NCBI GenBank assembly: GCA_028284905.1
Contig: JANQQU010000084.1
Location: forward strand, 186,001 to 250,000
DNA from: Calditrichia bacterium
Lineage (GTDB): Bacteria > Calditrichota > Calditrichia > RBG-13-44-9 > J075
Reading direction: 5' to 3'
DNA: 64,000 nucleotides
The position numbers were made by a program, and so were the translations under genes. Under the pieces are notes generated by a model, which worked only from the letters and a program-made list of their open reading frames with translations, was not told the origin of the DNA and did not search any database. Shown piece by piece: positions 9,332-23,006 of this stretch (position 1 is its first letter; each line of letters opens with the position of its first letter).

Positions 9332-11365
9332 TTACTTCAGGTAATGAACGATTTGAGTAGCGAATGACTCACCCTGTTGAAAATGGAAAAAATAAGCACC
9401 GGAAGAAATTCTACTTTCCGGCTGCCAGCGCCAGGTGTTTTGCCCGGCGTTTGCGGGGAAAAGTTGGATGCTCGCTACCTGGCGTCCTAACAGATCAAAA
9501 ATGCTGACGCTCACCGGGCGGTGATGGGTGAGGTGCATCCGAAAATGAACTTCCCCGTTGAATGGATTCGGATAAGCAGAATACACCTGGAAGCGCTCAG
9601 GGATAGTCGTTGCCGGCTGAGGGGAGAGGGAGGTAATGAAAGGCTGGCGCTGCATCCAGGCAAAGGATTTTTCCGGGGCAATAACATGCCAGGTGTATTT
9701 ATCGATAGCAACGCATTGCCGGGGTTTACTGCCAAAAGCGACTATTGATGAATCGATATAACTGGCGTTGGCAGCGTCAACAAATATTGCCGGCGCCTCA
9801 CCGCTAATGTCGACCATGCTGTCGCGAACGACCAGGGTAGTACCCTCGTCCAGTAAAACACCCAATGATTTTGGTGATTTGAACGAGCCCCAGAAAAAAC
9901 CGCCGACCCGGTTTTCTTTATAATCATGGTCTTCAAATCCCTTTGTCATGACATTTACATTTTGCCACACAGTCGCGCCGCCAACCCATTTCAAGTTGCC
10001 GTAAAATAAGTTGCTGCTGCTGCTTTCCGTAGCACCGACAAATTGATTGCTTACCATCCGGGCATCGACGCCGATAGCCAACAGGGGAGCACCAGCAGCC
10101 ATTTTTCCGGCGAAATGCTGACTGAGATCATTTGCCCCGTTCAAAAGATCCCCGACAAACAGTTCATGATTGCCGGCCAGCACCAGCGCGTCGGCGGCAT
10201 CTACCCGGGCAACAACTGCGGGATCGTTGACATTGCCGATATATATCGATTGCACCCAGGCGGAATCTACTCCTTGTGCAAGAAACCAATCGCGATACAT
10301 CTGCGCACGATTGACTGCGTTGCCATTGATATCAGAGAGAATAGTTATTTTTTCAACCGCGGGATTTTCCTGTAAAAATTGTGAAAGGAGACCGCCGGGT
10401 GCAGATTGATAGCTAAAATCATCTCCCCCTTGCAGCCAAATATCGGTCGGGGGCAGTTGGTCATCCGGCGCAATAGTTGGTACTGCTGTTGCGCCGGAGG
10501 GCACGGATGTAACAGTGCGGCTGCTTAGATCAAAGCGGAATCCGGCGGTCAATTGGGAACCGTTCACATGGGTAAAATGAAGCGGCTGGCCGGCAGCGCA
10601 AATAACCTCACTCTCTGTTGACTGCCACAAGAAGGTGACTGCGCCGGATCCGGCAGGGGTGGCGGTTAAGTCCGGATTGACCAATAGTGCGGTGCGATCA
10701 TCAATTCCGATGGTGAGGATATCAGCGGCATGATCCTGGTTCCAGCGCGCCAGGATACCAAGCATTCGCCCAACGCGCCCGCGTTCGATGACGTGAGTAT
10801 CCACAAAAATATCAGGCAGAAAAGAGAAAAAATCATTTTTCAGGGTAACATGAAAATCATACGGATTCCGCAAAACTTCCTCCGGATATACCGTGCCGTT
10901 TTGCGCGGTGAAGACGATTTCGCTCAAAACCATGGCGCCGGCTGAAGTGCCTCCAAGAACCCCGCCTCCCTGATAAACCGCAGCTATGGCCTGGGCAGCC
11001 AGGGTGTTGCGCCATTGCGAATAATACTGGAATTGATTGCCACCTTTTAAGAATAGGACATTCGCATCCAGGATGGCATTATACACCGCGGAATCATTGG
11101 CCTGTGCTACAGAGGCAATTTTTAAATTGGAGGCTTGCGCGGCGCCAAGCGAGAGAAAATAGTCCGGCATCCAGTTGCTTTCATCCCGGTAAGAGAGCAC
11201 TAGCACTTTACCGGAATCGCCTTTTTCTACCATCCATCCGTAAGGTATATCGCTCCAGCTGTTATAGTTTTCCGATCCGCCTCCTACCAGGGCAAGGTAT
11301 CCCTGCGGAAAGATTGCCGAAGACATCATTACCGCGAGCAGTATTATCAAATTCGAAATTTTCAT
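9332..11365 (-). CDS. Secreted S51 (cyanophycinase-type) peptidase with degenerate second domain and C-terminal sorting domain
   Basis: This 677-residue protein starts with a signal peptide (about 1-20). Residues 22-230 form a peptidase S51 domain with the KGGNQ motif at 107-111 and the nucleophile elbow GGTSAGA, whose serine is S141. S51 enzymes include cyanophycinase and dipeptidase E, which cleave next to aspartyl residues. Residues about 306-450 repeat the same fold outline (VLAGNHELF, then APLLAIGVD) but lack the GTSAGA serine, so that half looks inactive. The last 85 residues carry a YPNPFN-type sorting domain, so the protein should be displayed on or released from the cell surface. ATG preceded by AAAGGGG. 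It is the last gene of the nine-gene operon. Confidence 0.85.
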   Translation of the reverse strand: MKISNLIILLAVMMSSAIFPQGYLALVGGGSENYNSWSDIPYGWMVEKGDSGKVLVLSYRDESNWMPDYFLSLGAAQASNLKIASVAQANDSAVYNAILDANVLFLKGGNQFQYYSQWRNTLAAQAIAAVYQGGGVLGGTSAGAMVLSEIVFTAQNGTVYPEEVLRNPYDFHVTLKNDFFSFLPDIFVDTHVIERGRVGRMLGILARWNQDHAADILTIGIDDRTALLVNPDLTATPAGSGAVTFLWQSTESEVICAAGQPLHFTHVNGSQLTAGFRFDLSSRTVTSVPSGATAVPTIAPDDQLPPTDIWLQGGDDFSYQSAPGGLLSQFLQENPAVEKITILSDINGNAVNRAQMYRDWFLAQGVDSAWVQSIYIGNVNDPAVVARVDAADALVLAGNHELFVGDLLNGANDLSQHFAGKMAAGAPLLAIGVDARMVSNQFVGATESSSSNLFYGNLKWVGGATVWQNVNVMTKGFEDHDYKENRVGGFFWGSFKSPKSLGVLLDEGTTLVVRDSMVDISGEAPAIFVDAANASYIDSSIVAFGSKPRQCVAIDKYTWHVIAPEKSFAWMQRQPFITSLSPQPATTIPERFQVYSAYPNPFNGEVHFRMHLTHHRPVSVSIFDLLGRQVASIQLFPANAGQNTWRWQPESRISSGAYFFHFQQGESFATQIVHYLK

Positions 11366-11411
11366 TTTTCCCCTTTAAAACTGTAAAAATATATTTCCCG
11401 GATTAGGCATC

Positions 11412-12425
11412 TTAAAGTCCAACCCGAAAGCTGAGAAAGTGAATATCGCCTAACAAGCCCAGGTTGATATAACTATAGTCAAAACTGGACGCCACGCTGC
11501 GCATATTCAAATTTAACCCCAGTCCCAGACTGAAGTTCTGTTCGTCATAACCAATTTTATAGCCGCCGCGCAACATCAAAAATTCCTTAAAGGCGTATTC
11601 CGTCCCAAAGCTAATTCGGGTATTGTTATCATTCGGATCATTGCTGGCTGTGGTTATGGTGAGCCGGTGCTCGTCCTGCTGATAGGGATCAAAGGCGATA
11701 CCCACACTGAAGTATTGCGGCAGGCTGTAATCTTCTGACAAACGCTGCGTCCGGGGATTATTCGGCTCATCAAGAAGCGTTTCGTTAGCGATCTTGTCAT
11801 CGATCAGATCACCGCTCATCTTTAATTTAGGGGAGAAATTAGCCATAATCATTCCGATGCGGAGATTGTAGTAATTGGTCTGGTAGATCGAAGCGATATC
11901 GAATGCGATGGTTGAGGCGTCCGCATCCCAAATAAATTCATGTACATACTTCGCGGTCACACCGAAGCTGAAATGATTGGTTAACGCCAGTCCGTAGCTG
12001 AGTCCGGCGGCATAACTGCCGGCGTTAAAAAACTCGCCGGTGCCATTAGGGGAAATTTCCGTGGTCACCTCCATCTCATCCATGGTAAAAGCGCTGATGC
12101 TTAGGCCGAAGGCTCCCCAGCGCCCGAGATTATGCGCCAGTCCCAGGTGAGATATCCGGGTATCGATAATCCAATCGCCGCTGGAAAGGAGGAGTTCGGT
12201 GCCTTCCGTGGCAGTAATCACTGCCGGATTCCAGTAGAGGCCGTCCACTCCTTCCGCCATCGCAACATAGGCGTTTCCCATTGCAGCACCAATCGGCTCA
12301 ACGGGAATCTGTAGGAAATTGGCGCCGGAATGTCCAACATTCTTAAATTCTTGTGCGTAGCTGTTTGACAAGTTTATAATGCTCATCATTAAAAATAAGC
12401 CGATGATGTTTACTATAGCGCGCAT
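11412..12425 (-). CDS. PorV/PorQ family outer-membrane protein
   Basis: This 337-residue protein has a signal peptide (about 1-25) and the family's start signature: FLQIPVEPIGAAMGNAYVAMAEGVDGLYWNPA (two short stretches joined here), where glycines and WNPA are characteristic. The rest is alternating amphipathic strands ending with ...FRVGL, as expected for a FadL-like barrel. PorV is the type IX secretion shuttle that receives sorting-domain cargo; many paralogues in FCB bacteria have unknown substrates. Lying between a secreted sorting-domain peptidase and another exported protein, it may handle those partners. ATG preceded by AAAGGAG. Family call strong; substrate inferred. Confidence 0.82.
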   Translation of the reverse strand: MRAIVNIIGLFLMMSIINLSNSYAQEFKNVGHSGANFLQIPVEPIGAAMGNAYVAMAEGVDGLYWNPAVITATEGTELLLSSGDWIIDTRISHLGLAHNLGRWGAFGLSISAFTMDEMEVTTEISPNGTGEFFNAGSYAAGLSYGLALTNHFSFGVTAKYVHEFIWDADASTIAFDIASIYQTNYYNLRIGMIMANFSPKLKMSGDLIDDKIANETLLDEPNNPRTQRLSEDYSLPQYFSVGIAFDPYQQDEHRLTITTASNDPNDNNTRISFGTEYAFKEFLMLRGGYKIGYDEQNFSLGLGLNLNMRSVASSFDYSYINLGLLGDIHFLSFRVGL

Positions 12426-12437
12426 CCGTAATCTCCT

Positions 12438-14321
12438 TTATCGAATAATAGCGAATTTTCCGACGGTTTCTCCGGCAGATGATTCGACGTGGTAAAAATA
12501 AACCCCGGTAGCGATAATTTGATTAAAATCGGAACGGATATCCCAGTATTCCGCCCCGCTGCCGTTGGTGTGCCGTATCGTTTTCACCAGGTCGCCGTCA
12601 ATGGTAAAAATCCGAATGGTGCATTCCCCGGGAAGATTAACAAATGAGATTTCCCGGATCGGTTCGCCGTCGGGGATATTACCCAGGCGCTCCCGTTCCC
12701 ATTGGGCGGAGATAATGTATGGATTCGGGACAACCCGGATTTTATTGGTACTGGTTTGTGACTCCGAACGGGGGCGCAGCTCAACCGCATTTAAATTTTC
12801 GCTGACTTTCGCGATGCCCGATTCGTCATTACTGCTGTCCAGAATGGTAACTGCGTAGGAATAATAGAAGCCATTGATGACGTCGTTATCGGTAAAAGTG
12901 TAAGCGTTTTCCTGATAAGGGTCGCTCTCAAAGAACATGCGGGGAATCGAATCTATTAAGGTCCACTGCAATCGCTGGGCGTCTTCGGTTTTATAGATGC
13001 GATAGTATTTTAAAGTGTTCGAACCGGTTTTCGGGTCAATGTATTCCAGGTCGAGCCGGTTATCCCAATGGAGAATATTTTTTCCATCACCTTCCCGGGC
13101 GCTGATAGCCGGCTGTGGCACTGCTTTGACCTGAAAATCATTGTTATACACTTCCCAGATGCGATCGACATTGGCGCTGATATCCTGGTAATTTTGACCA
13201 CAGACCATGGCGACGATAAAACGGAGGGTATCGTACGGCGCCATCGAATATGGCCCGCTGGAATTGAAAGTGACCAAAGTATCGCCGGATTCCCGGATCA
13301 GTGAAGGATCATCATAATGGAGGTTATCCCCGTGGAACAAATCCGGCCAGTTGGGATCGTCGCGGAGGCGAGGATCGCTGCTCATCAACTGAAATTGCTG
13401 AACGTCATCGGTAATGCTCCGCGGTTCGTTGAAGTTGTCGGTATAATGCCAATCGGTAATACCGAGTTGTTCGCCGTTTACCTGCGGTGTTTCCAGGAAG
13501 ACAATGCCGATGTAAAACGGTTCGGTTTCCCAATCCATGCTCCAATTGTCGGCATCATAAAAATAAGTGAATTGGCGATCCAACTCCAGGGCAACTTTAT
13601 CATCAACCCAGTCGGAGCCAAAACCTCCGGCATCGAAATCGGTATACAAACAAAAATAGAGACTGTCTTTCGCAGCCGTGGTATCGTTGACCAGCTCGAA
13701 TTTAAAAATGATATAGTCTTCGTCAAGGGCAGTATTCCAGGCATAGCCAGTTTGATGAACTTTGATGTTCAGGCGTTTGCCGGGATCTTCCTGGGCAAGA
13801 TAATTGGTATAATCACGAAAAACTGCGTAGGAATCCTGGTTGGAAAGTATCAGGTTCTTTCCGTCTCTATCCTGCACTGGCCAGTAGGGCTGATTGTTTT
13901 CGTCGAGAGGCCAGGTGGTACTGTCATTGCTGATGGCGGTCAGTCCGACGTTCGGGTTATGATAACCGCCGACCGGGTCCCACTCCTTAGTGCCGAAGGT
14001 CCGGGTTTGTACCACATTGCCCGGCACCCCAACGTAAAGGTTTGCTCGCCACATGGCTTCATGACCGGAACCGAGGGGCCACTCCGCAGTGGGGCTTAAT
14101 TCGCTCCATGAGGAATAAAACTGCCCCATATTCGATACGTATTGACCTAATTTATTTACGGCAATAACGTTAAAGGTGCGATCAGATAACTCCTGCGTCT
14201 TTCCCGAAGTGGACAGCGGTTCGAAACGCGGGAAGCGTTCGCGGGAGGTCTTATCCTGTGCGCTGATACTGCCAAAGAGAAAAAGGATCAGGATCATCGA
14301 GTATATTTTTTGCTGGTTCAT
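12438..14321 (-). CDS. Exported protein with fibronectin-like region and C-terminal sorting-like domain
   Basis: This 627-residue protein has a signal peptide (about 1-21, MILILFLFGSISAQ core). The central part is rich in Trp, Tyr and Asp and looks like beta-sandwich repeats. Around 400-500 there is a fibronectin-III-like stretch (LHWDNR...YYRIYKTED). The end has VVPNPYI followed by a FlgD-like beta-sandwich (IRIFTIDGDLVKTI, ATGVYFYHVES), a variant of the FCB sorting domain. I do not recognise an enzyme. Proteins of this type often sit beside a TonB receptor and a PorV-like protein, as here (18 and 12 bases away), and may be a surface binding partner of the receptor. Confidence 0.72.
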   Translation of the reverse strand: MNQQKIYSMILILFLFGSISAQDKTSRERFPRFEPLSTSGKTQELSDRTFNVIAVNKLGQYVSNMGQFYSSWSELSPTAEWPLGSGHEAMWRANLYVGVPGNVVQTRTFGTKEWDPVGGYHNPNVGLTAISNDSTTWPLDENNQPYWPVQDRDGKNLILSNQDSYAVFRDYTNYLAQEDPGKRLNIKVHQTGYAWNTALDEDYIIFKFELVNDTTAAKDSLYFCLYTDFDAGGFGSDWVDDKVALELDRQFTYFYDADNWSMDWETEPFYIGIVFLETPQVNGEQLGITDWHYTDNFNEPRSITDDVQQFQLMSSDPRLRDDPNWPDLFHGDNLHYDDPSLIRESGDTLVTFNSSGPYSMAPYDTLRFIVAMVCGQNYQDISANVDRIWEVYNNDFQVKAVPQPAISAREGDGKNILHWDNRLDLEYIDPKTGSNTLKYYRIYKTEDAQRLQWTLIDSIPRMFFESDPYQENAYTFTDNDVINGFYYSYAVTILDSSNDESGIAKVSENLNAVELRPRSESQTSTNKIRVVPNPYIISAQWERERLGNIPDGEPIREISFVNLPGECTIRIFTIDGDLVKTIRHTNGSGAEYWDIRSDFNQIIATGVYFYHVESSAGETVGKFAIIR

Positions 14322-14339
14322 CTGCCTTAAAGCCTCCTC

Positions 14340-16859
14340 TTACATTTCTAAAGTAAGCCCCAGAAAAACCGTACGCGGGGCGAAAAAATTGGTTGGATTC
14401 ACAATATATTCCTCGGATTGCGGATCGCCGGAATCGTCCGGGAGCCCGGTGACGCTGTAAACACTGCGTACGTTTTCCCGGTTAAGTAAATTATAAATTT
14501 CGAACAAAAGCCCCATACGAGCCGGACCAACGGCAAAGCGTTTTTCCGCTTTCAAATCGACATTATAAGTGGCCGGCAAACGAGCATTGTTCAAGTCCGG
14601 TTCATATCTTTTCCGGGTAGGATTAAAAGTGAAGGGCAAGCCGCTGCCATACTGAAATAGCAGGGTGAGATAAGCATTGTTCAAGATGGGAGAAAACACG
14701 CCAAATGAACCTTGCGACCGCGGGGTATTCAAGGAAATATAAGCATTTACCATATGTGTTTGATCGAAACTGAGGGGATAGAATTGCAGAGACTGCCGAC
14801 CTTTTACATCGAAAGCGCCGGTAAAGCGTTCCTGCTGGGAAGAACTGCTGCCTTCGGCAATCTGGTAAGTGTAATTCCCCCCGAGGGTCATGCGTTTGTA
14901 GCGCCAGCGGGGGCTGACCTCAAATCCTTTAGCACTGGCGAAATCTTCGTTGGTATAGTAGGCATACTGGTTTAGCACACCGGCCTCCTTAAACACCCAG
15001 GCAACACCGATCTGGTTGCGGATTTTTTTGCTAAACACGGTACTTTGCAGCGACAGATTTCCCGCGATCTGGGCATTGACACCAAACTCCTGGCTTTGGG
15101 TTTGGCGGGGTTCGAGGTCCGGATTGCCGATCAGCGGTTTGTTGACATCCAAATTGCGGGTAAGATCCTCATAAAGTACCTCGAAGGTGGGGCGCTGCAG
15201 GAAGTGGCCATAAGCAAAATGAAAGACCATGTTTTCCGTCAAGGGGTAGGCAATACCCAGGCGCGGACTGAGTTGAGACTTGATTGACGCCTCCGTGAGC
15301 GAATTGGCCCGGTTGTTTGGATCGGCAATATAGTCGATTTTCGGATCGTAGAAGTCCCAGCGCAACCCGGCATTTAAAATGATGTTTTCGAACTCTATCT
15401 TGTCCTGAATGTAAGCCGCGCCCTCGTAAGGTTTCAGGTTGAAATCGTTGATATACTGGTTCTGCGGAAGCCGGGTCGGCCCGAATATCCAGAAGTAATC
15501 GACATCATGTTGCTGCAGTTCAATCCCGGCTTTAAAAAGGTGATGGCGGTTATACTGATAAATCGCATCGATTTTCCCGGTGAGGGTTTTCGTGTTCTGA
15601 TCGATGAACTCTTCGTTGCCCGCACTCAGTCGGAATTCACCATTGTAGCGGCGGGAAGCGCCGGAGGTATATTCACTGTAGTCGAGGTCGGCATAGTTCT
15701 TCAAAAAGTCGTATTGATAATATGAGAGCCGGAATTCATAAAACAGCTTTTGGGAAAGCGTATGGGAAAAATTCATTGCTAACAGTTGGCTCTCCCGAAA
15801 GCGGGTAAAGGCGCTATCCGGAATATATTTGTAGGAATGCACGTAACTTTGCCATTCACGATCATTGTAGTTATAGGAAAAAGAGAGTTTGCCGGTGGAG
15901 AAAGGTTTAAAGTATATTTTTCCAAATACCGATGTTAGATTGTTGTAGCCGAAAGCTTCTCCGGAAAACTCACCGGTGGGGATGCCTTCCGGGCTTAATC
16001 GTCCGGATTGGTAGTAGTTGTCATTGTTATCCAATTTACCGGAAAGCAGTATCCCTACTTTTGAACCGGGATATAAAGGCCCATTGAGGTATCCTTCCAC
16101 CAGCCGCCCATTCAGGTTGTTACTGGCTTCTTCGATACCTAAATTGGAGCTGCGGTAGCGAATGTCACCGGTTAAGCGGTCAAAGTTTTCTTTCGTAACA
16201 ATATTAATCACCCCGGACTGGGCATTCCCATATTCGGCGTTAAAGGTGCCGGTAATCAGTTCCAACTGCTGAATCGCCTTGGTATTGACATCAGTGGGGC
16301 TGCCGCCAAAAAGCGGATCTTCGACCCGGTTACCATCAATCAGGTAAGCCAGCTCCCCACTGCGTCCGCCGCGAACGTGCAAAGCCCCGGTATTCACTAC
16401 CCCGGCCTGCAAGGAGAGCACTTCGTTGACGCTGGTTACCGGTAGTTGTTCAATTGTTTCCGTGTTCACATTGACATTGGTGAAAGTTACATCCCGTTCA
16501 ATTTCCCGGCGCGTTGCTTCTACCACAATGCTTTCACCAAGATTGAGCACATCCTCTTCAATCACAAAGTTTAATTCCGTGGTATGATCCACCCGTACAA
16601 AAACATCGGTTATGGTAACATCTTTATAGCCGATATATTGGGCAGTCAGACGTTGTTTACCCGGGGGAACATTGATAATAAAGAAATAGCCGTCTGCGTC
16701 GGTGGCCGCGCCAAGGTTTAACCCTTCAACATAAACGTTTACGCCAACCATAGATTCCCCGCCGGTATTTTTGACGATGCCGGCAATCTTCCCGGTCGTG
16801 CCTGCAAAAACCAGCACAGAGAGGAACAAATTAAAGAGCAGGGGTTTGAACAGATTCAT
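14340..16859 (-). CDS. TonB-dependent outer-membrane receptor with carboxypeptidase-regulatory-like N-terminus
   Basis: This protein of 839 residues imports a ligand across the outer membrane using TonB energy. After the signal peptide comes a CarboxypepD_reg-like domain (about 25-110, GVNVYVEGLNLGAATDADG), then a plug domain (about 120-225) with the LQAGVV, VRGGRSGELAYLIDG and NAQSGVINIVTK motifs, then a barrel of about 600 residues with many aromatic strands. The ATG at 16859 has GGAG six bases upstream; the TTG at 16871 overlaps that site and is unlikely. This SusC-like layout is used in FCB bacteria for oligosaccharides or peptides. Peptidase and carrier genes in the same operon favour a peptide-like ligand, by inference. 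Confidence 0.88.
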   Translation of the reverse strand: MNLFKPLLFNLFLSVLVFAGTTGKIAGIVKNTGGESMVGVNVYVEGLNLGAATDADGYFFIINVPPGKQRLTAQYIGYKDVTITDVFVRVDHTTELNFVIEEDVLNLGESIVVEATRREIERDVTFTNVNVNTETIEQLPVTSVNEVLSLQAGVVNTGALHVRGGRSGELAYLIDGNRVEDPLFGGSPTDVNTKAIQQLELITGTFNAEYGNAQSGVINIVTKENFDRLTGDIRYRSSNLGIEEASNNLNGRLVEGYLNGPLYPGSKVGILLSGKLDNNDNYYQSGRLSPEGIPTGEFSGEAFGYNNLTSVFGKIYFKPFSTGKLSFSYNYNDREWQSYVHSYKYIPDSAFTRFRESQLLAMNFSHTLSQKLFYEFRLSYYQYDFLKNYADLDYSEYTSGASRRYNGEFRLSAGNEEFIDQNTKTLTGKIDAIYQYNRHHLFKAGIELQQHDVDYFWIFGPTRLPQNQYINDFNLKPYEGAAYIQDKIEFENIILNAGLRWDFYDPKIDYIADPNNRANSLTEASIKSQLSPRLGIAYPLTENMVFHFAYGHFLQRPTFEVLYEDLTRNLDVNKPLIGNPDLEPRQTQSQEFGVNAQIAGNLSLQSTVFSKKIRNQIGVAWVFKEAGVLNQYAYYTNEDFASAKGFEVSPRWRYKRMTLGGNYTYQIAEGSSSSQQERFTGAFDVKGRQSLQFYPLSFDQTHMVNAYISLNTPRSQGSFGVFSPILNNAYLTLLFQYGSGLPFTFNPTRKRYEPDLNNARLPATYNVDLKAEKRFAVGPARMGLLFEIYNLLNRENVRSVYSVTGLPDDSGDPQSEEYIVNPTNFFAPRTVFLGLTLEM

Positions 16860-16938
16860 AGTGTTCTCCAAAATTTCATAAACGGACTTCGGGAATACTG
16901 CAAACCGGGGCCGCTAGAGCGGCGCCCGGTCAAAAAAA

Positions 16939-18051
16939 TTATTTGGTGAGCAGCATTTTTCTTACCTGACTGGCAGTACCATTGGCATCCGATACGCGGA
17001 CACGATAGAGATAGAGACCGCTCTCCACGGCGCGGCCATTATTATCCCGGCCATTCCAGGTGATCATATGTTCGCCGGCAGCGCGTTTTTCATCCAACAA
17101 TGTTCTTACCGGTTGCCCGAGAACATTAAAAATTTCGATTCGGACATCCGCAGCTGCCGGGAGAGCAAAGGGAATTGTCGTGCTGGGGTTAAAGGGATTC
17201 GGGTAGTTTGCACCGAGGGAAAAACCGTCCGGGATATTTTCGCTTTCCGGGGAGATACTGACAAACGATTGGTCGTAAACGTTCTGGGCCTCAGTCATAT
17301 GTGTTTGCAAATCTCCAAGGCTGCTTCCAAAAGCCAATGCTGCGTAAAGCTTAACACTACCATTCGCAGGTATGGTGAAGTCACCGGCATTCAGGAAACA
17401 GGCGCTACCGTCCGAGCCGGGTGAGAACGGAAAAGTGGAATTGGCGGGTTCGGTTATCTGCGTCCAGAGGGCAGTATCCGGGAAAACATTGCCCTGGGAA
17501 TAATCGGAATATTGGGCGGCACGAAAAGAATAGGGTGCCTGCGACAATAATTTTGTTCCGACATAGCTACTGGTTTTAAAAATGTAGCCCATCTCATTGG
17601 TCGCGTCATAATCCACAAACTCATCGCCGTACGCCTGATCGATCTGTGGAATTACTTCCATGCTAAAATAGCCGTCCTGATCCGCGCCGGTATAATCCGA
17701 AATCTCAAAACTGACAATCAGGAAATTCTTATTCTCCCACCAATACACTTCGTGTTCAACAAATGCTATTGTATCGGCACCATTAAAGTAGCAGATCGTA
17801 AAAACCATTTCCGAGTCCGCCACTGCCGGCGTTCTCGGCGCCGGGGGAATATATGGCAGCGTGATGCCGACATCTTTATACATGTAGACATTATCCTGGT
17901 TGTCGGCAAAATCAAAGCTAAAGCGGTCGAGATGACGGGTGCCGCCATCGTCAATTAAACGAATTCTTCCCCATTGATTGAGGGAAAAGTCAACCTGTGC
18001 CAACATCAGGGTTGGCAGCAGTAATAGCATTGTAGTGACAAAACGCTTCAT
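16939..18051 (-). CDS. Secreted protein with type A sorting domain, unknown function
   Basis: This 370-residue protein has a signal peptide (about 1-18, MLLLLPTLMLAQ). Residues 20-270 form a beta-rich domain with no motif I can name; it contains repeated Asp/Gly/Tyr turns and phrases such as DQDGYFSMEV. From about 281 it has LGANYPNPFNPSTTIPFALP, then the sandwich domain with FNVLGQPVRTLL and VESGLYLYRVRV, the classic sorting domain of FCB bacteria. RBS GAGG precedes the ATG. It stands 67 bases upstream of the TonB receptor and 81 bases after the YfcC-type carrier gene, so it links the cytoplasmic and outer-membrane halves of the operon. Possibly a surface substrate-binding protein. Confidence 0.8.
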   Translation of the reverse strand: MKRFVTTMLLLLPTLMLAQVDFSLNQWGRIRLIDDGGTRHLDRFSFDFADNQDNVYMYKDVGITLPYIPPAPRTPAVADSEMVFTICYFNGADTIAFVEHEVYWWENKNFLIVSFEISDYTGADQDGYFSMEVIPQIDQAYGDEFVDYDATNEMGYIFKTSSYVGTKLLSQAPYSFRAAQYSDYSQGNVFPDTALWTQITEPANSTFPFSPGSDGSACFLNAGDFTIPANGSVKLYAALAFGSSLGDLQTHMTEAQNVYDQSFVSISPESENIPDGFSLGANYPNPFNPSTTIPFALPAAADVRIEIFNVLGQPVRTLLDEKRAAGEHMITWNGRDNNGRAVESGLYLYRVRVSDANGTASQVRKMLLTK

Positions 18052-18132
18052 AATAACCTCTACTTATTTTGGTTTAAAAAATGGTGAATTAGTATCCCCG
18101 AAGATTTTTCCTTCAGTTGAGTAGTGTCTTTA

Positions 18133-19530
18133 CTACCAGTTCATAAAATAGGGCGGTATCAACAACAAGAATCCGGTAATCATCAAGATAATCTGCAGCG
18201 GCAGCACCCATCTGGCCCATTTTTCCCATGAGATATCTGCGAGAGAAAGCACTCCCATTAGTACTGCGGAGGTGGGAATTATCATGTTGCTGAACCCATC
18301 GCCAAATTGAAAAGCGAGCACTGCCGTCTGCCGGGAAATACCTACCAGATCGGCCAGTGGGGCCATGATCGGCATTGTTAAAGCTGCCTGTCCGCTACCG
18401 GAAGGAACCAGAAAATTAATCGCGGTTTGTATCACAAACATCGCCTGGCTGGAAACAACCGGACCAAAATCGCTGATCGCTCCGGATGTGCTGTGGAGGA
18501 TGGTATCGATAATTTGACCATCCCGGGCAACAATCAGAATACCGCGGGCAAAGGCGATAATCAGAGCAGTGCCAACCAGGTCTTTAGCGCCATCAATAAA
18601 TGCTGTGGACGTTTCTTTCACACTTAGCCGGCCAACTATCGCGACCGCAATGCCGGTAAGCAGAAATACCGCGGTGATTTCTTCGATGTACCATTGGTAG
18701 CGCAACACCCCGAAAACCAGTAGCACCAATCCGGCGCCAAAAGTCAGTAAAACCAGTTTCTGATGACGGCTGAGCCCGCTAAAATCCCCGCTGTGGTAGC
18801 TTTGAGGAACTTCTCGTCGCTGCTGATCCGCTTTGTAAGTGGGGCTTTTTTGCGGTGATTTTTTGATTTTGCCGATATAAATCAGCACAAAAAAGATCGT
18901 AATAGCAGTGATAATGATCCAGGTTATAAACCGATAACCGATTCCCGAAAATAAGGGGAGGCCGGCAATGCCTTGCGCGACGCCAATGGTAAAAGGGTTT
19001 AAGAGCGCTGCCGCAAAACCGGCGTGTGCAGCAAGGTAGGACATCGCAATACCGGTAATCGTATCATATCCCAGGGCCAAAGAGAGGGGAATAAAGATCA
19101 GTACGAATGGAATTACCTGTTCGCTCATGCCAAAAGTGGCGCCGGCCAGGGAGAAAAGGATCATGATCATTGGGATCAGGTATTTTTGCAGAAAGCGGGA
19201 GGATTTATGGGATTTTACAATGGCGGCAATAGCGGCATCGACTGCCCGGGTCTGCTGAAAAATAGAAAATGCGCCACCAACAATCAAAACGAAACCGATG
19301 ATCAGCGCGGCATCAGTAAAACCGCGTATCGGGGCCATCAGCACCTCTGCAATGCCCTGGGGATTGCTCTCAAGGTATTCAAAAGATGAAGCCAGCACAA
19401 CTTCCCGGCCGTCAACAATTGCCGTCTGGTACTGTCCCCCGGGAATCAGCCAGGTTAGTATTGCTACCAGCACAATCACCAGGGAAATGATCAAATATGT
19501 ATCGGGTGCTTTCAATCTAGATAGTTTCAT
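18133..19530 (-). CDS. YfcC/DcuC-type inner-membrane carrier
   Basis: This 465-residue membrane protein has about 12 hydrophobic helices and the family features of YfcC (C4-dicarboxylate anaerobic carrier-like): TWLIPGGQY after the first helix, the FSLAGATFGMSEQ re-entrant-like segment, and the NFLVPSGSGQAALTMPIMAPLADL motif near residue 380. YfcC relatives are annotated as dicarboxylate or basic amino acid carriers, but few have been tested. It begins 13 bases after the RpiR gene. In this operon it is the likely route for breakdown products, such as short aspartyl peptides or amino acids, through the inner membrane. Family secure; substrate inferred. Confidence 0.86.
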   Translation of the reverse strand: MKLSRLKAPDTYLIISLVIVLVAILTWLIPGGQYQTAIVDGREVVLASSFEYLESNPQGIAEVLMAPIRGFTDAALIIGFVLIVGGAFSIFQQTRAVDAAIAAIVKSHKSSRFLQKYLIPMIMILFSLAGATFGMSEQVIPFVLIFIPLSLALGYDTITGIAMSYLAAHAGFAAALLNPFTIGVAQGIAGLPLFSGIGYRFITWIIITAITIFFVLIYIGKIKKSPQKSPTYKADQQRREVPQSYHSGDFSGLSRHQKLVLLTFGAGLVLLVFGVLRYQWYIEEITAVFLLTGIAVAIVGRLSVKETSTAFIDGAKDLVGTALIIAFARGILIVARDGQIIDTILHSTSGAISDFGPVVSSQAMFVIQTAINFLVPSGSGQAALTMPIMAPLADLVGISRQTAVLAFQFGDGFSNMIIPTSAVLMGVLSLADISWEKWARWVLPLQIILMITGFLLLIPPYFMNW

Positions 19531-19543
19531 ATCAAGTAAATTT

Positions 19544-20392
19544 TTATGGTTTAATCGTACGATAATTTTCGGTGATACGATTCAGGCTTTTCAGCATTCT
19601 TTCCGCGCGTTCCCGTTCCTGCAAGGCCGACTCGGTAGAAATTGCGTTGATTAAAACCGAAATCGCTGCAAAAGAGTTGGTGTAGAGCATATTTTCGCTT
19701 TTTACAATCAGGTTGACGTCTGCGTAAAAAGTAACCGGAGATGCCTCGCGATTGGTGACAGCAATTACCGGAATATTTTCTTCACTGGCGTATTTGGCCA
19801 GATCGATTGTATCGCGGGAGTAGGGAGGGAAGGAAAAAACGATTAAAATATTATCTTTTTTAAAAAAAAGCGCCTGCTCCAGAAAGAGCGAAGAGCCATT
19901 TCGGAATGGCAGCGCGTTGATACCAATTTGATTCAACTGGTAGGCGAGAATTTCCGATAGCAGATAAGAGATGCCTAAGCCCGCACTGTAAACACAACTG
20001 GCATTATTGATCAGTTTGACTGCCTGATCAAAAGTGCCCCGGTCGATTAAGTTTAAGGTTTCATTGATATTCTTGATATCGATGTTTGCAACAGAGGTGA
20101 GCGTATCATCTTCGAGGTTTTCCAACTGGGGAAAAATCCGGCTGCCTTCCAGGCGGGATTGCAGTTCCTCGGCAATCTTGACACGCATCTCGCTGAATCC
20201 GCTAAAACCGACCCGTTGGGCAAAGCGCACCACAGATGCAACGCTGGCGTCAGTTTCCCGGGATATGTTCTGAACATTGAGAAAAGGGATTCTGTCAAAA
20301 TTTTCAATAAAGAAATCCGCCAGTTTACGCTGATTCTTTGGCAGCGTTTCATAAGTATTCTGGATTTTTATCTTAGTATTTATATCCTGCAT
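19544..20392 (-). CDS. RpiR/MurR family transcriptional regulator
   Basis: This 282-residue repressor-type protein has an N-terminal helix-turn-helix domain (about 1-77, with NISRETDASVASVVRFAQRVGF as two adjoining segments) and a C-terminal SIS domain (about 125-250: VYSAGLGIS, FSFPPYSRDT, IPVIAVTN). SIS domains bind phosphosugars or related small ligands. Its gene lies third in the operon, 13 bases from each neighbour, so it probably controls its own operon. A candidate operator is the perfect palindrome at 22441-22456. What it senses is unknown; a breakdown product of the imported substrate is likely. Confidence 0.88.
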   Translation of the reverse strand: MQDINTKIKIQNTYETLPKNQRKLADFFIENFDRIPFLNVQNISRETDASVASVVRFAQRVGFSGFSEMRVKIAEELQSRLEGSRIFPQLENLEDDTLTSVANIDIKNINETLNLIDRGTFDQAVKLINNASCVYSAGLGISYLLSEILAYQLNQIGINALPFRNGSSLFLEQALFFKKDNILIVFSFPPYSRDTIDLAKYASEENIPVIAVTNREASPVTFYADVNLIVKSENMLYTNSFAAISVLINAISTESALQERERAERMLKSLNRITENYRTIKP

Positions 20393-20405
20393 ATTTCTAT
20401 CCCTG

Positions 20406-21299
20406 TTAATTAAGCAGTTTTAGATGGCGTAAATTGAAGCGCTGTCCGGCTTGTAGCAGGTGCATCCGGATGTCAAATGCAGAAAGATTGCCGTTGCTAT
20501 CCTCGGTAATATGCCGGGCGCTGCTGGCATCAAATATCATTACTGTGTTTTCTCCAATCACTTCCAGGATTTGTCCTGGTTGGATGATCACGGCCGTGGA
20601 TTCATCGATGCCAATGCCGCTGAGAGCGGGGTGTTCAAGCACCAGACTGATCAGGCGGTTATGCCGTTTACGGCGGATAAAGTGCTGGTCGATAATGGCA
20701 TTTCTCAGGAATCCGAAACCCGCTGAGGTTTCGATATTTCCGGCACGAATTGTCCGGAAAGCGGGAGGAGATGATTGTGCCTCGGGATTTTGGCCGCTGG
20801 CTAGCTTTTCGTTGCCGGTAATCATTATTTCACTCATCACTGCTGCACCGGCGCTGGTACCGGCAATGGTGCCGCCTGCTTGATAAATAGTCTTGATCCG
20901 TTCCAGAAAACGGGTACCGGCAAGCGCCGCCGTCAGACGGTTTTGATCGCCCCCGGAAAAGAAGATACCGCTTATGCCGTCCAACTTGGCTAGCGTTGAA
21001 TCATGGTCAAGTGTTTCCCGGCTGCCCAGAATAAAATCTACCATGCCGGCGCCTTGTTTTTCCAGCTGATACTTCTGAAAAAGAGCGACATCCAGGGGAA
21101 TACTGCTCGCCAGGGGAATAATTAAAATTTTGCTTTCGGCACCCCCGGCGAGATCAACAACCTTCTTCATCACAACAGCCGGCCGCTTCCCGCCGCCAAT
21201 AATAACTAAATGCCCTTTTTCCTGGGCAAACATACCGGAGGAAAAAAGCAATATTCCCCAAAATATCGCTTTGTTGAATAAGCAGGCTACAATATTCAA
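20406..21299 (-). CDS. Exported cyanophycinase-type S51 peptidase
   Basis: This 297-residue serine peptidase has a signal peptide (about 1-26) and the complete S51 motif set: LVIIGGG at about 31-37, FFSGGDQNRL at about 113-122, and GGTIAGTSAGAAVMSE with nucleophile S149. A later GIDESTAVII matches the segment near the active site. The length fits cyanophycinase rather than the shorter dipeptidase E. The start is TTG at 21299, with GAGGAG nine bases upstream. The enzyme should act in the periplasm or outer membrane on aspartyl-containing peptides, complementing the secreted S51 protein at the far end of the operon. True cyanophycin activity is not shown by sequence alone. Confidence 0.87.
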   Translation of the reverse strand: MNIVACLFNKAIFWGILLFSSGMFAQEKGHLVIIGGGKRPAVVMKKVVDLAGGAESKILIIPLASSIPLDVALFQKYQLEKQGAGMVDFILGSRETLDHDSTLAKLDGISGIFFSGGDQNRLTAALAGTRFLERIKTIYQAGGTIAGTSAGAAVMSEIMITGNEKLASGQNPEAQSSPPAFRTIRAGNIETSAGFGFLRNAIIDQHFIRRKRHNRLISLVLEHPALSGIGIDESTAVIIQPGQILEVIGENTVMIFDASSARHITEDSNGNLSAFDIRMHLLQAGQRFNLRHLKLLN

Positions 21300-21336
21300 A
21301 TTGATAACTCCTCAAAGTTGCTGGCTATTTTATCAA

Positions 21337-22440
21337 TTAATTATTTGTTCTTTGAATTAGCGCCAGGGCGATTTCTGCTGCTTTTAGAAGATCTTTTTTC
21401 AGGATAAACTCATCGTTTGCATGGGGATTCTGAGCACCGATACCAATATTGACGGTTGGTATTCCTTTCGCATTAAGGGCGTTCGCATCACTGCCACCCG
21501 GAGATATTTGCGGTGTCGGGATAAGCCCGGATTGACGAATCGCCGAGCTAATCTTTTGATATACCGGCATGTTTTCAGTCAGGCAATACGGCTTAAATTC
21601 CCACTCTGCGCTAAAATTTAAAGTCGCACCGGCGCTTGCAGCCGCAGCGCTGAAATGCGCCTGTATTTCAGATATGACAGATTCTACCCTTCCCGGATCC
21701 AATGATCGAACTTCCCCCTGCAGATGGGCCTTTTCCGGGACAACATTAACCGCCATGCCACCTTCCAGCAAACCAATATTCGCAGTGGTGATTTCATCGA
21801 TACGCCCAAGCCGAAGGCGGTTGATGGCATCGGCAGCTACCGCAATTGCACTGATTCCTTTTTCCGGAGCGATGCCGGAATGTGCTGCTTTCCCTAAAAA
21901 CGCTGCGGAAAATTTTTGGGCGCCGAAGGATTGACAAACAAAATTCCCCGGCCGAAAGGAAGAATCGAAAACAAATCCCATCTGTATATCATCATTTAAA
22001 GCGAGATAGCGGGACCCGGATAGATTGGTTTCTTCGCAGACAGTAAATGCGACTGTAAAATCCGCAATAGGCAACTGCTGCTGGTATGCATATTCAATCG
22101 CATATAGAATGGCGCTGATGCCGGCCCGGTTGTCTGCACCGAGTATCGTTCTGCCGTCAGAACAAATTTTTTCCTCATCAACGATTGGGTTCAAATCTGC
22201 GGTCGATCGGGCGGTATCCATATGGGAAAGGAGCACAACATTTCCACCACTCCCCAGTTTACCAATCAGGTTACCGCTGTTTCCTCCGCTAATTTCCTGG
22301 GCATTATCTTCTTCAAGCGAAATATTCAGGCGGCTGAGAAATGCTTTAATATAATCCTTGACAGCCTCCTCATTTCCGGAAAGCCCTTCAATGGTAGCGG
22401 TTTGCAAAAAAATGTCGATAAGTCGGGATGGAATGCTCAT
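21337..22440 (-). CDS. M20-family metallopeptidase (PepT-like tripeptidase)
   Basis: This 367-residue cytoplasmic peptidase has the M20 zinc-binding plan: LLSHMDTA (first His and catalytic Asp), LGADNRAG (bridging Asp), CEETNLSGS (catalytic Glu-Glu), FDSS, and a late NPHANDE with the final His. A dimerisation domain lies between about 180 and 290 (AAHSGIAPEKG). No signal peptide is present. It matches PepT2/tripeptide aminopeptidase-like proteins and should split small peptides after import. It is the first gene of the operon. There is no Shine-Dalgarno before its ATG; a palindrome ends one base upstream instead. Confidence 0.88.
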   Translation of the reverse strand: MSIPSRLIDIFLQTATIEGLSGNEEAVKDYIKAFLSRLNISLEEDNAQEISGGNSGNLIGKLGSGGNVVLLSHMDTARSTADLNPIVDEEKICSDGRTILGADNRAGISAILYAIEYAYQQQLPIADFTVAFTVCEETNLSGSRYLALNDDIQMGFVFDSSFRPGNFVCQSFGAQKFSAAFLGKAAHSGIAPEKGISAIAVAADAINRLRLGRIDEITTANIGLLEGGMAVNVVPEKAHLQGEVRSLDPGRVESVISEIQAHFSAAAASAGATLNFSAEWEFKPYCLTENMPVYQKISSAIRQSGLIPTPQISPGGSDANALNAKGIPTVNIGIGAQNPHANDEFILKKDLLKAAEIALALIQRTNN

Positions 22441-22456
22441 TGAAATAAAAATTTCA
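22441..22456. promoter_or_regulatory. Candidate RpiR operator palindrome
   Basis: TGAAATAAAAATTTCA is a perfect 16-bp palindrome (TGAAAT, 4-base centre, ATTTCA) that touches the ATG of the first operon gene. RpiR-family sites are commonly palindromes with TGAAA/TTTCA-like ends. Bound protein here would block the start of the message. Role inferred from position and symmetry. Confidence 0.55.
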
Positions 22457-22484
22457 TTTTTTGTTTTATTGAAAAATTTATTAC

Positions 22485-22513
22485 AACTTATAAAATAAAT
22501 AAATTTTTGTCAA
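22485..22513 (-). promoter_or_regulatory. Candidate sigma-70-type promoter of the peptidase/TonB operon
   Basis: On the minus strand a TTGACA (22513-22508) is followed after 17 bases by TAAGTT (22490-22485), or after 15 bases by TATAAG. Surroundings are very AT-rich. The start site would fall near 22478, putting the palindrome at 22441-22456 downstream, between start site and ATG. Confidence 0.5.
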
Positions 22514-22610
22514 TAGAAGATTGAATAAAAATTGTGGACGAAGCAGTAGAAGAGATTTTATACTGAGGGAAATCATCCGAACAAGCGCCGGTTTTTTGTG
22601 GGGCTAAATA

Positions 22611-22645
22611 AAAAAGGGCACAACAAGTTGGTTGCGCCCTTTTTG
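22611..22645. terminator. Bidirectional terminator-like hairpin
   Basis: AAAAAGGGC pairs with GCCCTTTTT, and inside it CAAC pairs with GTTG. Both flanks carry A/T tracts, so it can work in either direction. No gene end lies directly next to it, which is unusual. The right arm (GGTTGCGCCCTTTTT) is the same as that of the hairpin at 9246. Confidence 0.8.
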
Positions 22646-22708: not shown

Positions 22709-22950
22709 TAGAAATATGTTGCCCCTACAGGACTCTCAATTATAAACCGATTCACTGGCTATAAACATTCCGCCCCTACGGGGCTCTTTGTTTTCAACAG
22801 ATTCTACTGGTTATAGATATCTCGCCCTACAGGGCGTTCAATAAGCTTTAAGTAAAATTTTAAACAAAACAAGTCCCATAGGGACGACATATTTGTAGCT
22901 AAAAAGCAGCCAAAAATCTTTGAGCCCCATAGGGGCGACATATTTATCAG
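22709..22950. repeat. Array of five REP-like palindromic elements
   Basis: Five short palindromes centre on GCCCCTA(C/T)GGGGC-like cores: 22709-22737, 22761-22788 and 22811-22840 in one orientation, then 22872-22898 and 22922-22950 in the opposite orientation (GGGGCGACATATTT...). Copies 2 and 3 also share an upstream stretch (GATTC-CTGG-TATA). The five are diverged rather than identical and lie between two terminator hairpins. This resembles the REP-like intergenic repeats common in Bacteroidetes-group genomes. No coding frame is credible here. The rest of 22457-23027 holds only AT-rich sequence and the hairpins listed. Confidence 0.8.
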
Positions 22951-22970: not shown

Positions 22971-23006
22971 AAAAAAGGGCGCTTCCATCAGTTTGCGCCC
23001 TTTTTT
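22971..23006. terminator. Rho-independent terminator (bidirectional)
   Basis: A perfect 12-bp stem, AAAAAAGGGCGC against GCGCCCTTTTTT, with a 12-base loop. It lies 22 bases past the stop codon of the minus-strand gene at 23028-23537 and is its likely terminator. Very similar to the hairpins at 9246 and 22611. Confidence 0.9.

Follow-up and report, generated by a model that had tools for sequence, protein, structure and literature searches.

In the known pathway, cyanophycinase yields beta-Asp-Arg, on which an isoaspartyl dipeptidase then acts (PMC10206079). Cyanophycin-scavenging clusters with amino acid transporters are known in genomes lacking cphA1, and the name "cyanophycin utilization locus" is credited to Ben Hania et al. 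(2017) (PMC10206079). In addition, isoaspartyl dipeptidase activity has been called undiscovered in Firmicutes and Bacteroidota (PMC10206079).

Here we analyzed a stretch of 64,000 nucleotides from a Calditrichia bacterium (hereafter the window). The initial annotation had proposed that a nine-gene block in it may form a complete uptake path for cyanophycin or other isoaspartyl polymers, and knew of no named counterpart. The absence of a named system is incorrect: cyanophycin utilization loci had already been described (PMC10206079, citing Ben Hania et al. 2017), and the central idea is already known. Our results favor, by a modest balance of probability, an operon that is inducible and scavenges an external isoaspartyl polymer or its peptides, with cyanophycin as the best single candidate.

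Gene content and conservation of the block

The block was recovered as described, with nine ORFs between positions 9332 and 22440 of the window, all on the minus strand and separated, in order of coordinate, by gaps of 46, 12, 18, 67, 81, 13, 13 and 37 bases. No terminator-like hairpin was found on the coding strand in any of the eight intergenic gaps. Counted from the promoter, the genes encode an M20/PepT-like peptidase, a small S51 peptidase, an RpiR-family regulator, a YfcC/DcuC-family carrier, a secreted protein (T9a), a TonB-dependent receptor, a surface protein (T9b), a PorV-like protein and a large S51 protein (S51L). The domains claimed for these products (two S51, PorV-like, TonB receptor, carrier, RpiR and M20) were confirmed by profile matches.

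The proposed check of co-occurrence in relatives was borne out: the gene set persists across several phyla, and its contiguous recurrence shows that the grouping is more than chance proximity. In a Caldithrix sp. of the same class (Calditrichota; L017, identical to L057), all nine genes were contiguous, with an M14 carboxypeptidase inserted before S51L. As a candidate CphZ beta-Asp-Arg hydrolase, this M14 enzyme was not supported: its only PDB relatives were other carboxypeptidases. In a genome of the same family (G006, locus L019), eight genes were contiguous up to the contig end and the ninth, S51L, was on a separate contig, 2.4 kb from a gene for a beta-aspartyl-peptidase (IaaA, Asparaginase_2 family). 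Two other genomes (G008 and G012) retained the S51-RpiR-YfcC-M20 core; in both (L021 and L022), a Na+/H+ antiporter gene (NhaC-like, Pfam-checked in L021) lay divergent to it. The whole or partial block was also present on about a dozen contigs of Ignavibacteriota, KSB1 and Bacteroidota. Of 80 named loci that surround S51 relatives, 12 combined RpiR, TonB and S51, and 10 combined TonB-T9b with S51. These loci came chiefly from Ignavibacteriota, KSB1, Calditrichota and Bacteroidota, and both counts are lower bounds because contigs were short. Gene order differed among relatives and the gene set was kept. In G025 (L018), an M14 carboxypeptidase gene adjoining S51L (10944-11933) was interrupted by stops, and YfcC, TonB, T9b and PorV were absent from its surroundings, which marks it as a decayed locus.

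The S51 enzymes, the dipeptidase and the carrier

Both S51 products of the block matched the Pfam S51 profile (46.7 and 66.4 bits, cut-off 23.9), in agreement with the initial annotation, and no further S51 gene was found in the 8.55 Mb genome. The small S51 (20406..21299), which has a signal sequence and is predicted to be periplasmic, exceeded the cut-off of the TIGR02069 cyanophycinase equivalog (183.6 against 126.6 bits); S51L (9332..11365) fell below it (105.7 bits). In CphB (3en0), we take Ser132 and His174 to be catalytic and Gln101 and Arg178/Arg180/Arg183 to line the pocket, and both proteins, when aligned to it, keep these residues (S149, H206, Q119 and R210/R212/R215 in the small S51; S141, H191, Q111 and R195/R197/R200 in S51L). 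In the PDB, the small S51 matched best to 7uqv, titled "pseudo-CphB", which is reportedly inactive (Sharon et al. 2022) although the same residues are kept, so that residue conservation is no proof of activity.

In S51L, an N-terminal S51 domain is followed by a second, degenerate one and then by a tail of T9SS type A. Against the second domain (about residues 305-590), the small-S51 profile gave an alignment of 245 columns with a probability of 96% and E 4e-9. This domain has no nucleophile segment and is thus predicted to be a dead partner domain. Direct comparison of the two halves of S51L detected no internal repeat (E 0.15), and the second half was shortened in some relatives. The AlphaFold model (pLDDT 63) was confident mainly in the N-domain, and its PDB matches by Foldseek were cyanophycinases.

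A tree was built from 89 S51 domains (SH-aLRT support only, with long branches flagged by the program and four odd or long-branch rows omitted, one of them CphA-linked). In it, the CphA-linked cyanophycinases, 3en0 and 7uqv formed one group. The small S51 belonged to a separate clade of 67 members (98% SH-aLRT), none with a CphA partner, and S51L to a third group, a single family (99% SH-aLRT) shared with Bacteroidota SusCD loci, including L092 and L098 with IadA and L102 and L110 with IaaA. The small S51 did not group with the CphA-linked cyanophycinases in this tree, which counts against cyanophycin itself as the substrate.

The M20 peptidase (21337..22440) has no signal peptide and is proposed to be a cytosolic (iso)aspartyl dipeptidase. 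Over its full length it scored 272.1 bits against the PepT-like model TIGR01883, just under the cut-off of 274.25; its PDB relatives were 3rza and 3gb0 (peptidase T), and more distant ones included the poly(aspartic acid) hydrolase 7ljh. Neither IadA nor IaaA was found within the operon, where M20 is present instead, and the three PF01112 matches of the genome (one partial) all lay outside it. In related loci, the dipeptidase slot was occupied by M20 in 15, IaaA in 11 and IadA in 6. M20 was found only with YfcC (15/15) and never with CphA (0/13), and it stood beside IaaA or IadA only once, which is only weakly suggestive of mutual exclusion (p 0.09). Loci with IadA or IaaA in place of M20 retained the small S51, and some also had the S51L family or YfcC. 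The adjacent carrier (18133..19530), predicted to lie in the inner membrane, met the DcuC family profile (PF03606, 358.7 bits) and fell below the YfcC equivalog (NF008611, 407 bits, cut-off 500). Because of the exchange of IaaA, IadA and M20 in one slot, the linkage of M20 with YfcC and the 7ljh relative, an isoaspartyl substrate with M20 as the dipeptidase appears to be the best reading, although the activity assigned to M20 is a guess.

The same enzymes could also serve general peptide scavenging, in which the S51 proteins would cut alpha-aspartyl or other peptides in a PepE-like manner and M20 would be a plain tripeptidase, with no isoaspartyl polymer involved. The nearest relation of M20 is indeed peptidase T, the alpha-aspartyl dipeptidase PepE is itself an S51 member (PMC9239234), Caldithrix ferments peptides (PMC5317091), and a Zn carboxypeptidase adjoins S51L in G026, as does a disrupted one in G025. 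However, the small S51 scored only 27.5 bits against the PepE model, compared with 183.6 against cyanophycinase, and IadA or IaaA adjoin the same S51 families in related loci, so we consider this explanation unlikely. A defensive role against isoaspartyl-nucleotide (microcin C-like) antibiotics, with the S51 proteins acting like MccG, would fit the cleavage of such nucleotides by S51 MccG enzymes (PMC9239234); given that MccG is intracellular, whereas both S51 proteins here are exported and encoded among uptake genes, it is very improbable.

In three loci (L052, L055 and L056), a close homologue of the small S51 (52-53%) was found alone, outside uptake loci; in L052 it sits between sufS-like and truA-like genes (neighbours identified by eye), which suggests a housekeeping role in some Ignavibacteria. 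Their presence in such unrelated settings weighs against cyanophycin as the substrate. Such homologues would agree with an operon that recycles isoaspartyl peptides from damaged proteins of dead biomass rather than a storage polymer, and isoaspartyl residues do form spontaneously in proteins (PMC10206079). We regard this origin of the substrate as quite improbable, because it leaves the two S51 proteins in two compartments, the surface display and the dedicated receptor unexplained.

The outer-membrane cassette and the promoter region

The TonB-dependent receptor (14340..16871) has a CarboxypepD_reg N-domain and matched PF00593 (102 bits), PF13715 and PF07715; its start is likely an ATG three codons inside the annotated TTG. 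It scored 72 bits against the SusC model (cut-off 368), and SusD (PF14322) had no match anywhere in the genome, so that no SusC/SusD pair was found. The PorV/PorQ-family outer-membrane barrel (11412..12425) matched NF033709 (188.8 bits, cut-off 90) and missed the T9SS PorV equivalog (69 against 250 bits). The two members read as "hypothetical", T9a (16939..18051) and T9b (12438..14321), carry or resemble T9SS cargo tails. With the type A tail model TIGR04183 (cut-off 23), S51L scored 32.4 bits, T9a 30.0 and T9b 18.3, the last below the cut-off, as was its weak CHU_C match. The T9SS core genes SprA and PorU (810 bits) are present in the genome. In three related clusters (L051, L054 and L063), two tandem T9a-like genes were observed rather than one.

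The genome contains 24 PorV-family genes over the cut-off. For 18 of them, a T9b-like or T9b-tail match lay on the same strand no more than 8 kb away; 11 had a TonB receptor as well, giving 11 TonB-T9b-PorV triads. Among the triad loci of this genome (L142 and L144-L152), several lay beside glycoside-hydrolase or transporter genes: GH38 and an ABC transporter in L144, a peptide ABC transporter in L148, GH30 and a BCCT carrier in L151, and GH20, GH92 and a sodium symporter in L152. The T9b model was of low confidence (pLDDT 56) and showed a beta-sandwich resembling the N-domain of GH94/GH116 enzymes, together with Fn3 and the T9SS-like tail. We propose that T9b may be a ligand-binding, SusD-like partner of the receptor. 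A broader reading, in which TonB-T9b-PorV would be a general SusCD-equivalent cassette of Calditrichota, Ignavibacteriota and their kin, with a T9SS-exported beta-sandwich replacing SusD, and would here serve isoaspartyl-polymer uptake with M20 as an unrecognised isoaspartyl dipeptidase, is tentative and, taken as a whole, somewhat doubtful.

Upstream of the first gene, a promoter-like TTGACA ... TATAAG element (22487..22513, minus strand) is accompanied by two palindromes on the same strand that are proposed RpiR operators. Operator 1, TGAAATTTTTATTTCA (22441..22456), abuts the first ATG, and operator 2, TGTAATAAATTTTTCA (22470..22485), lies just downstream of the -10 element, with the same position and spacing in four relatives (G006, G026, L051 and L054). 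In the window and in all four, a TTGACA-like element preceded TGWAAT-N4-ATTWCA, or a close variant of it, by 22-23 nt. The regulator itself (19544..20392) matched both HTH_6 and SIS. The best upstream palindrome scored 11-12 of 12 in 14 of the 18 clusters that carry RpiR, compared with none of the 27 without it (Fisher p 2e-8, an optimistic value because the clusters share descent and are AT-rich). In per-region shuffles, a score of 12 was seldom reached (0-5 of 200). The strict pattern TGWAATNNNNATTWCA had six sites in the genome, one of them operator 1. A wider RpiR regulon was also considered and rejected: the other five sites were within or beside unrelated genes, and thus the regulation looks local.

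Further upstream, positions 22723-22945 hold short repeats of two families, which have palindromic, GCCCCTACGGGGC-like cores and a start-to-start spacing of 51 nt. They are flanked by two similar hairpin-plus-T-run, terminator-like elements (22610-22644 and 22971-23005), 361 bases apart.

Proposed function and comparison with known systems

As to the complete uptake path of the initial annotation, the layered uptake-and-digestion locus is well supported by gene linkage, the RpiR-linked operator, the T9SS core and the interchange of dipeptidases, and cyanophycin itself is a plausible candidate substrate. No CphA1 over the cut-off was detected in nine genomes, including this one, which implies an external polymer source and looks like scavenging. 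From these features we infer the substrate, the direction of transport, repression and its ligand, and all enzyme activities as follows. S51L, displayed by the T9SS, would begin polymer breakdown at the cell surface, and fragments would enter the periplasm through the TonB receptor, aided by its outer partners T9b and the PorV-like barrel. There the small S51 would trim them to beta-aspartyl dipeptides, which YfcC would move over the inner membrane and M20 would split into amino acids in the cytosol. RpiR, bound to the paired TGWAAT-N4-ATTWCA sites, would keep the promoter repressed, and binding of a product to its SIS domain would end this repression.

At the level of single enzymes, the operon S51 proteins share the S51 fold, the catalytic Ser/His and the pocket Gln/Arg with CphB and pseudo-CphB, and differ from them in being exported and in falling outside their CphA-linked group. 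At the level of the locus, the operon resembles a Sus-paradigm PUL in combining a surface enzyme, a TonB receptor, a periplasmic enzyme, an inner-membrane carrier and a regulator in one unit, but it has peptidases rather than glycosidases, in a genome without a SusD match. The cyanophycin utilization locus of strain L21-Spi-D4 (Ben Hania et al. 2017, as cited in PMC10206079) is also reportedly of PUL-like design. Like the operon, that locus has several cyanophycinase-type genes, a dipeptidase and a transporter, with no cphA1 over the cut-off. In the operon, M20 takes the place of IadA, and TonB-T9b-PorV that of a receptor of the polysaccharide-locus type; RpiR with palindromic operators and a T9SS-displayed two-domain S51 are further differences. 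Thus, of the features of a cyanophycin utilization locus, the operon has cyanophycinase genes and a transporter without cphA1, and has no iadA or iaaA. The Bacteroidota SusCD loci (L092, L098, L102 and L110) share the S51L family and the small S51, and L092 and L098 also YfcC, whereas they have a SusC/SusD receptor, IadA or IaaA in place of M20, and no RpiR or T9b match.

The version with M20, RpiR operators, YfcC, a T9SS-displayed two-domain S51 and TonB-T9b-PorV was not described in the open-access literature searched. Compared with the known systems, M20 in the dipeptidase slot, the degenerate second domain of S51L, RpiR control and the TonB-T9b-PorV cassette therefore look new. The operon would extend cyanophycin-type scavenging to Calditrichota and Ignavibacteriota, offer M20 as a concrete candidate for a missing isoaspartyl dipeptidase, and draw attention to a recurrent receptor cassette without SusD, by which these little-cultured phyla could take up polymers.
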